The notes beneath the pieces were generated by a model. That model did no database searches. It saw only the letters and a list, made by a program, of their open reading frames with translations, and was not told where the DNA came from. Positions 5,744-50,469 of a DNA stretch of 64,000 nt are shown piece after piece (position 1 is the stretch's first letter; every line of letters begins with the position of its first letter). A program made the translations under genes and the position numbers. Source of the stretch: Pseudoxanthomonas kaohsiungensis (GTDB lineage Bacteria; Pseudomonadota; Gammaproteobacteria; Xanthomonadales; Xanthomonadaceae); contig NZ_PDWO01000001.1 in NCBI RefSeq assembly GCF_010211765.1, positions 372,001 through 436,000 of the forward strand, read 5' to 3'.

Positions 5744-5794
5744 TCGTTCCCGGGATAAATCGACCGAGAGCGCAGGCTCCGGATGGGGCCGCCA

Positions 5795-5890
5795 TGCCAT
5801 GCGGGTATGGCTTACCCCTCGGGACGGCATCCTGCCTTTACGAGGGGCCGTGGCACATCCCTGTGCCACTTGCGCCATACCCGCATGGCA
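5795..5890. repeat. Structured intergenic repeat, copy 1 (three-way-junction fold)
   Basis: A perfect 17-bp inverted repeat (TGCCATGCGGGTATGGC at 5795-5811, reverse complement at 5874-5890) encloses two further hairpins. Hairpin A pairs CCCCTCG (5815-5821) with CGAGGGG (5841-5847) and has an inner GGCA/TGCC. Hairpin B pairs GTGGCACA (5850-5857) with TGTGCCAC (5862-5869). The same internal sequence, with a different but still fully paired outer stem, recurs at 50072-50165. It lies between genes and encodes no convincing protein. Confidence 0.8.
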
Positions 5891-6202
5891 CGACGTCCCC
5901 GGGCGCTTCAACGCCGCAGCTTCGATCAGACAGGCGAAGCAACAAGCGACTCCGACAAGACGCGATGGGGCTTTTCGGTAGGGCGCGGGCTTGCCGGCGA
6001 CTCGGGCATCCTGGTCGCAGGGGTGCCTCTCGTGCCCACGCCATCGCGTCGCGGCCAGGTCGTCTCGACGAATGCACGACGATACCCCCAGGACGTGGTA
6101 CGCCACGGCCTGTGTCGCAGCCGATAACCCGGCCCGCTTCCGCGCTCGTCCATGGACAGTCTTGTCGACCGTCCGCTCACCGCGGCACGGCACAATGCAG
6201 GC
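5891..6202. other. Gene-free stretch with a degenerate repeat
   Basis: No credible gene was found here. From 5978 it carries a degraded copy of a GTAGGAGC...CTTGCCGGCGAC repeat (here GTAGGGCGCGGGCTTGCCGG) that is better preserved at 50238-50356. A -10-like CACAAT (6191-6196) lies directly before the ABC transporter start. Confidence 0.5.
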
Positions 6203-49844: not shown

Positions 49845-50071
49845 ATGGGGTTCCTCAAGGTACGGATGGTCTCTGTCCGGATGGCTGGATCGGCTTCACT
49901 TCTCGCACCAGAAGCGCTGAGCCTGCGGGTGCATCCGCTAGGAGCAGGGCGCTGGCTGCGGCGGGCGCTGGCTGTCGCAGAGCACTGGCTGAGGCCGGCG
50001 CAGGCTGAGGTAGGGCGCTGGCTGTAACAGACGCCGGCCGGGGAGAGCGCGGCACCGGCGGGGGCCGCCGT
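49845..50071. other. Gene-free, low-complexity stretch
   Basis: No gene was recognised. Between about 49949 and 50030 the words GCGCTGGCTG, GCACTGGCTG and GCGCAGGCTG recur irregularly (at least five times), giving degenerate direct repeats with A/T-poor character. Confidence 0.5.
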
Positions 50072-50165
50072 CCTGCCGGGGTATGGCTTACCCCTCGGGA
50101 CGGCATCCTGCCTTTACGAGGGGCCGTGGCACATCCATGTGCCACTTGCGCCATACCCCGGCAGG
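50072..50165. repeat. Structured intergenic repeat, copy 2 (three-way-junction fold)
   Basis: The outer arms CCTGCCGGGGTATGGC (50072-50087) and the exact reverse complement (50150-50165) enclose the same two hairpins as copy 1: CCCCTCG/CGAGGGG (50091-50097, 50117-50123) and GTGGCACAT/ATGTGCCAC (50126-50134, 50137-50145). Compared with copy 1 at 5795-5890 the inner part is almost identical. The distal half of the outer stem differs, yet stays fully paired. Confidence 0.8.
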
Positions 50166-50237
50166 CCGACGTCCTCGGGCGGCGTGATGGGCATGGCTTC
50201 GATCGGCGAACTTGCGGCCATGGCTGCTCGCTGCTCT

Positions 50238-50356
50238 GTAGGAGCACAGCTTGCCGGCGACACCGGCGTCGGCATCACGAAAGCGCCGCCTGTGCCGAGG
50301 GCGTCGCGTCGCGGGCGCCCTTACACGGACGCATGTCCGGACTCCCCGGCTCCTAC
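50238..50356. repeat. GTAGGAGC...GCTCCTAC inverted-end repeat
   Basis: GTAGGAGC (50238-50245) and GCTCCTAC (50349-50356) bound 119 bp containing CTTGCCGGCGACACCGGCG. It is a member of the 'TAGGAGC' intergenic repeats common in Xanthomonadaceae and Pseudomonas. It follows the structured element by about 70 bp, as a degraded copy does after copy 1. The rest of 50357-50469 holds nothing recognisable. Confidence 0.7.
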
Positions 50357-50469
50357 AAAGGTGCAGGCACCGAAGCCATGGCAGTGCGGTCTGCTTCGCC
50401 ATTTGCTGCCGGTCCGGGCCAAGCGACGACCAGCCTGTTCGTCGTCGCTGTTGCCCAGCAGCGCCGCTG

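Follow-up and report, generated by a model that had tools for sequence, protein, structure and literature searches.

A dispersed GGA-hairpin repeat of Pseudoxanthomonas with a conserved fold: a probable divergent TwoAYGGAY-type RNA and candidate RsmA ligand

ERIC, YPAL and similar elements are dispersed, long, intergenic imperfect palindromes, and by description the element reported here resembles them. In its plan it also recalls TwoAYGGAY (RF01731, Rfam clan CL00106), a structured RNA in which an outer stem and a junction carry two adjacent GGA-loop hairpins, and which shares its clan with PrrB/RsmZ. TwoAYGGAY was reported from the human gut, gamma-proteobacteria and Clostridiales (Weinberg et al. 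2010), and CsrA binding has been predicted for it, with validation announced as to come (PMC4333381; excerpts of PMC3733652, PMC7652899, PMC7694677 and PMC2864571 supply further background). CsrB/CsrC, RsmX/Y/Z and the Xanthomonas RNA RsmU have multiple GGA hairpin loops as well, yet these are discrete small RNAs, whereas the element is a repeat present in dozens of copies with two sites each. RsmU, described in its report as novel and limited to Xanthomonas, arises by processing of an mRNA 3' untranslated region and binds and sequesters RsmA, so that 3'-end RNAs of such a kind have precedent; its binding in vitro survived the change of all four predicted GGA motifs.

Among the literature matches listed, none linked CsrA or RsmA to dispersed repeats, save for small RNAs of Escherichia coli rRNA operons, which are made in three near-identical copies via readthrough and have a reported interaction with CsrA (PMC8144298). 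These are comparable by description, but they are operon-linked and three in number, in contrast to the dispersed structured repeat here. The GTAG and CGTC REPs, BIMEs and TIR families of RAYT-like transposases, as far as the excerpted reports describe them, share with the element an intergenic palindromic nature, dimers in opposite orientation and a location at gene ends. The element differs from these palindromes in its length of about 95-155 nt, its three-way junction and its conserved GGA tips.

A repeat family with a conserved fold

The window, a 64,000-nucleotide stretch of the Pseudoxanthomonas kaohsiungensis genome (G000), holds two copies of the element. The initial annotation had described them as folding alike, with near-identical inner parts and a distal outer stem swapped on both sides between the copies, and sequence and folding bear out its coordinates and each of these points. 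In copy 1, the fold and covarying columns define a 17-bp outer stem (arms 5795-5811 and 5874-5890) that encloses two hairpins read on the minus strand. Hairpin 1 ends in CAGGAUG at 5828-5834, a tip of the CsrB-repeat type assigned from sequence, published consensus and conservation; hairpin 2 spans 5850-5869 by sequence and fold, and its tip CAGGGAUG (5856-5863) corresponds to the published consensus of a hexaloop ANGGAU closed by C-G. Copy 2 is built in the same way, with a 16-bp outer stem (arms 50072-50087 and 50150-50165) and a minus-strand hairpin 2 (50126-50145) given by sequence and fold, a hairpin 1 tip CAGGAUG (50104-50110, minus strand) given by sequence and published consensus, and a hairpin 2 tip CAUGGAUG (50132-50139, minus strand) given by published consensus.

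The extent of about 95 nt first proposed holds for the folded core but not for the conserved unit, which is longer and includes flank motifs that are GGCTYCGG-like and GGCTTCGATC-like in the own-genome alignment. With approximate ends, this unit covers 5775-5927 for copy 1, an A-type element placed by the alignment of 52 own-genome copies, and 50050-50205 for copy 2, likewise from the own-genome alignment; the corresponding covariance model matches are G000:C11:377771-377906 and G000:C11:422047-422182. The RNA of the A-type element is presumed to be the minus strand, on which both units are annotated. A separate hairpin resembling an intrinsic terminator precedes copy 1, and a GTAG-type REP palindrome (50237-50358), a separate repeat family recognized by its sequence, lies downstream of copy 2 and outside the element. 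Neither window copy has a convergent partner among the model matches or in an A/C profile scan of its flanks, and Rfam at gathering threshold reports only two tRNAs in the whole window.

The two copies are members of a large family. BLAST returned 43 matches in the genome, including two that are antisense arms of the element itself, and a first covariance model (R1), built from 39 A copies, returned 93. Of these, 68 are places that score above 56 bits, and the remaining 25 echo them in antisense; the 68 are a lower bound, as 150 of 2809 candidates were scored. A relative, G014, also yielded 93 model matches, 67 of which by our count are not antisense echoes. The window copies therefore belong to at least 68 places and are no two-copy coincidence. 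An alignment of 52 own-genome copies, from which a copy truncated at the end of its locus and copies sharing the same middle were left out, resolves related subfamilies A, B and C with a common plan and common flank motifs. The element is thus a repeat family with conserved structure. It had been proposed that structural selection, rather than simple duplication, explains the paired copies; the structural part of that proposal stands, but duplication is nevertheless part of the story because the element is a high-copy dispersed repeat.

Several measures speak to the fold, a covarying outer stem around a three-way junction with two hairpins. The shuffle z-score of copy 1 is -8.5 on the plus and -11.0 on the minus strand, that of copy 2 is -7.9 and -9.4, respectively, and none of 200 shuffles was as stable as either copy on either strand; folding energies on the minus and plus strands are -89.2 versus -78.2 kcal/mol for copy 1 and -81.6 versus -76.4 kcal/mol for copy 2. 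Across 39 own-genome copies, 98.1% of cells are paired and 21 of 41 pairs have changed on both sides, with a covariation score of 0.341 compared to 0.122 when shuffled and at most 0.076 with partners slid (0/500 shuffles reach the score). In 60 matches from other genera, all outside the model's training copies, 95.1% of pair cells are paired, both sides have changed in 35 of 41 pairs and the covariation score is 0.641 (0.154 shuffled, at most 0.086 with partners slid), in an alignment that was fitted to the model's structure and is biased towards it. Selection on structure is therefore strongly supported, as the initial annotation had argued from two copies, now within the genome and across genera. 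Across the genome-wide set, the outer stem proves to be a paired component of the element and not an unpaired or target-site sequence.

GGA tips, strand and relation to TwoAYGGAY

According to a review, as excerpted, CsrB repeats read CAGGA(U/A/C)G, SELEX yields the consensus RUACARGGAUGU and RsmE targets a hexaloop ANGGAN; bridging spans 10-63 nt with an optimum above 18 nt, and the stems favored in SELEX have mostly four or fewer contiguous pairs. The minus-strand tips of the element read CANGGAUG in hairpin 2 and CAGGA(U/C)G in hairpin 1, or CA(N)GGA(U/C)G overall, and 25 nt separate the two GGAs of copy 1. The element thus has the features of a CsrA/RsmA site, namely GGA in the loop, A(N)GGAN closed by C-G and at least two sites within 10-63 nt, on stems that are longer than those favored by SELEX.

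The GGA tips are conserved. All 97 A copies (44 from G000, 53 from G014; profile matches of at least 45 bits, excluding five place-repeating loci and one locus, L014, with a core identical to that of L015) carry at least two CA(N)GGANG motifs, and the 65 C copies (profile matches of at least 60 bits) carry two in 61 cases and one in 4, with the reservation that covariance and profile searches favor copies with intact tips. Among hairpins of at least 7 bp at the G014 loci, 139 GGA-tipped hairpins and 6 others fall inside elements, which were profile-picked, as opposed to 3 and 174 in the flanks. In the 58 full rows from other genera, tip positions account for many of the invariant columns, whereas the stem columns vary. 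GGA motifs also occur on at least one strand in 60/60 further model-matched loci (49 from other genera, 11 from the same genus), counted anywhere in the stretch and so in some cases outside loops. These loci and the cross-genus copies were unfiltered for the tip motif, though the model that located them covers the tips; the A2 set was pre-filtered by the motif and is not independent evidence. At least two cross-genus copies (L264 and L286) have lost the GGA of tip 1.

Mismatches lean towards the GGA strand as the RNA, though not cleanly. At 29 pairs predicted on both strands, the strand read in the initial annotation has 44 A.C and 8 G.U mismatches, in 12 versus 2 columns, and the cross-genus outer stem has 18 versus 2; A.C mismatches on that strand are wobble pairs on the GGA strand. 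The consensus fold is also more stable on the GGA strand, at -68.5 versus -59.5 for A copies and -74.6 versus -61.3 for C copies. Against this, all 41 model pairs taken across genera have more G.U (67) than A.C (32), largely owing to three columns, in a structure that was drawn for the TCC strand, and in the C copies A.C exceeds G.U by just 14 to 7. Because the copies are related, the mismatch cells are not independent.

The initial annotation found the element to fit no feature class it recognized. This is not upheld, as the strand opposite to the one it read has the TwoAYGGAY plan with CsrA/RsmA-type GGA loops. The link to TwoAYGGAY is shown by architecture and by model comparison, with several departures: the two loops are not both AYGGAY, since hairpin 1 of A copies is mostly AGGA(U/C) and most A-type copies lack the variable loop base of TwoAYGGAY there, and hairpin 2 of A copies has AGGGAU no less often than AUGGAU. 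High-copy convergent dimers are a further feature of the element, one that goes unmentioned in the excerpted TwoAYGGAY literature.

In the bacterial family surveyed, which we take to be the Xanthomonadaceae (class Gammaproteobacteria), R1 has matches in 29/149 genomes and 13/54 genera, including its own genus, and 120/149 genomes, including G016 of the same genus, gave none, with 22 candidates scored per genome so that counts of matches are lower bounds. Presence is patchy, and the element is therefore not a general need of RsmA. An exact 26-mer scan of genome contigs gave no match, and a looser sequence pattern found 49 stretches, all in Pseudoxanthomonas. A second model, R2, had matches in 6/369 genomes across the class, of which three belong to other families (lower bounds, at 9 candidates scored per genome), and the relatives found in these three families score 62.4, 61.9 and 58.7 bits against RF01731, whose gathering threshold is 43 bits. 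RF01731 itself reaches E<=0.01 in 32/149 genomes of the bacterial family and passes its cut-off in 5/149 (lower bounds, at 17 candidates scored per genome). It gave no match at E<=0.01 in the P. kaohsiungensis genome, the Pseudoxanthomonas genomes in the scan stay below 43 bits (best among the six listed 42.0, in G013), and no Pseudoxanthomonas match appears among the loci scored against RF01731 alongside the relatives from other families. In G013, G059 and G122, the sub-threshold RF01731 match adjoins an R1 match, as expected if one half of a dimer is closer to TwoAYGGAY. Because the relatives in other families pass the threshold and the Pseudoxanthomonas copies tested do not, we call the element a divergent TwoAYGGAY-type RNA and not a member of RF01731. 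As a separate observation, G149, G027, G086 and G103 have core-only RF01731 matches (positions about 44-113 or 49-107), many per genome and mostly below the cut-off, which suggests further families of twin-GGA-hairpin repeats.

Three matches to the CsrA family occur in the genome. The best scores 94 bits, and its product aligns with the solved carbon storage regulator 1y00 (E 1e-26), so a canonical RsmA is encoded. The explanation we consider best, with a probability of roughly 0.58, is that a divergent TwoAYGGAY-type RNA has been amplified as an intergenic repeat that would bind RsmA through its GGA loops.

Alternative readings: mobile DNA, REP-like palindromes and arm turnover

The element could instead be non-autonomous mobile DNA, a MITE- or TIRtron-like palindromic dimer moved by a single-strand transposase, with hairpins and tips that act as DNA signals and an RNA role that is incidental. 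Copy number and arrangement are in line with such mobility, which we nonetheless judge unlikely. Of the 68 own-genome places, 44 are joined in 22 convergent pairs whose spacers measure 85-220 bp; there is one tandem pair and no divergent pair. In G014, 49 of 55 fetched loci consist of facing A and C copies, with one of two facing A copies and five that fit neither description. A MITE would be expected to show terminal inverted repeats with a target-site duplication; the dimers supply inverted ends. Presence also varies between species. The copy-2 gap holds an A-B dimer in G004, an A copy with a REP palindrome in G000 and a REP palindrome only in G014, and is near-empty in G002 and G009; the copy-1 gap holds a full A-C composite in G014 and is near-empty in several other genomes. 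Self-complementary TIR families of RAYT-like transposases have been reported in Stenotrophomonas, and the variable part of the outer stem (alignment columns 29-43) has only 2 G.U cells in own-genome copies, both of which also favor a DNA element. On the other side, the gaps of relatives are too diverged to define a target duplication or to set element boundaries, and mobility leaves the strand-biased mismatches and the CsrA loop consensus unexplained.

Transposase genes lend this reading no help. At 25 Y1-transposase (PF01797) loci from 17 genomes of the genus, the flanks (mostly 1.5 kb) contain no A, B or C sequence, and two of the three own-genome PF01797 loci carry their own GTAG REPs instead. 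We rejected a Y1/RAYT transposase as the mobilizer on this lack of association, and the palindrome-end-dependent mobility raised at first as an option gains no positive support. Equally rejected was a GTAG REP/REPIN moved by RAYT, as no GTAG foot was seen in the aligned own-genome copies and no element lies beside the PF01797 loci. An integron attC site was considered too and set aside. At L042 and L043 (contigs C33 and C14), RAYT-type Y1 transposase genes are surrounded by their own GTAG REPs, of two different families; at L041 (C8:466-792), a Y1 transposase gene sits between inverted copies of about 24 bases, beside an IS3-like element near a contig end.

Other sequences accompany the elements. 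By eye, most of 22 printed G014 composites (of 44; L146-L170) have one to three GTAG REP palindromes in the A-C spacer, which gives the spacer the look of a place where REPs land by preference. Many elements (L006, L009, L149, L158, L164 and others) are immediately flanked on the outside by short tandem repeats with a unit of about 6 bases (CAACCG, GCGGTT and the like), and the head segment of the element occurs alone, repeated 2-4 times, upstream of an A element at L049 and L164 in G014 and at L010 and L033 in G000.

Gene context bears on a less probable reading, one to which we attach little weight: that the element is an ordinary REP/BIME-like palindrome, a bidirectional terminator or mRNA 3'-end stabilizer that acts without RsmA. 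The elements avoid divergent gene gaps, which also counts in favor of the RsmA reading and is the same bias that reports on REPs describe, with 2/54 G014 loci and 2/41 distinct G000 places in such gaps compared to 9/26 of the window gaps longer than 60 bp; these counts, from a home-made gene finder, take in 54 of the 55 loci of G014 and, for the 50 loci of G000, 46 rows, five of which repeat a place. The 54 G014 loci are distributed as 18 between two plus-strand genes (++), 17 between facing genes (+-), 16 between two minus-strand genes (--), 2 in divergent gaps and one unassigned. Extreme fold stability suits a terminator or stabilizer too, but termination or stabilization needs no GGA loops conserved in both hairpins across genera, and a separate terminator-like hairpin precedes copy 1. 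In co-directional gaps of G014, the A half lies in either orientation about equally, and an oriented terminator was rejected on this inconstancy.

Sixteen gaps, matched by both flanks, have elements in both G000 and G014, and at the 15 compared the A elements are 0.64-0.83 identical (mostly at or below 0.76), whereas their best same-genome paralogs reach 0.82-0.985; the cross-genome partner is the best match only at L145/L217. Elements are thus either homogenized within a genome or replaced at preferred sites. A further reading, in which template switching or gene conversion at DNA hairpins would keep the arms complementary with no selection involved, would fit this within-genome homogenization and the blockwise replacement of arms between copies with the same core, but would leave the conserved unpaired loops, the junction letters and the strand-biased mismatches unexplained, and we regard this as very improbable.

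A possible role in RsmA control

If the element is an amplified TwoAYGGAY-type RNA, transcription of the GGA strand, RsmA binding and a regulatory effect would follow a route that we infer from its architecture. The strand opposite to the one first read would be transcribed, as 3' untranslated sequence of a gene or as a small RNA. The long outer stem would then present the three-way junction and its two hairpins, with loops CANGGAUG and CAGGA(U/C)G, which could serve as docking sites for one RsmA/CsrA dimer. In convergent dimers, transcription from either side would give one GGA-bearing half, and the likely effect would be titration of RsmA, or its recruitment to mRNA 3' ends. Both genes next to copy 1 run antisense to its GGA strand; readthrough from those genes therefore cannot produce it, and this copy needs transcription of its own or may be silent. 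The roughly even split in orientation of the A half in co-directional gaps of G014 likewise counts against this route.

A bolder extension, which we think less likely than not, is a distributed, genome-wide RsmA sponge in Pseudoxanthomonas and its relatives, in which some 70 or more copies per genome, with two docking hairpins each and often in convergent dimers that work either way, would replace dedicated CsrB/RsmYZ genes and tune RsmA by copy number. The dozens of natural variants per genome make the predicted CsrA binding of TwoAYGGAY directly testable. If true, the amplified TwoAYGGAY-type reading would join dispersed palindromic repeats with global post-transcriptional regulation, two subjects that are usually kept separate.
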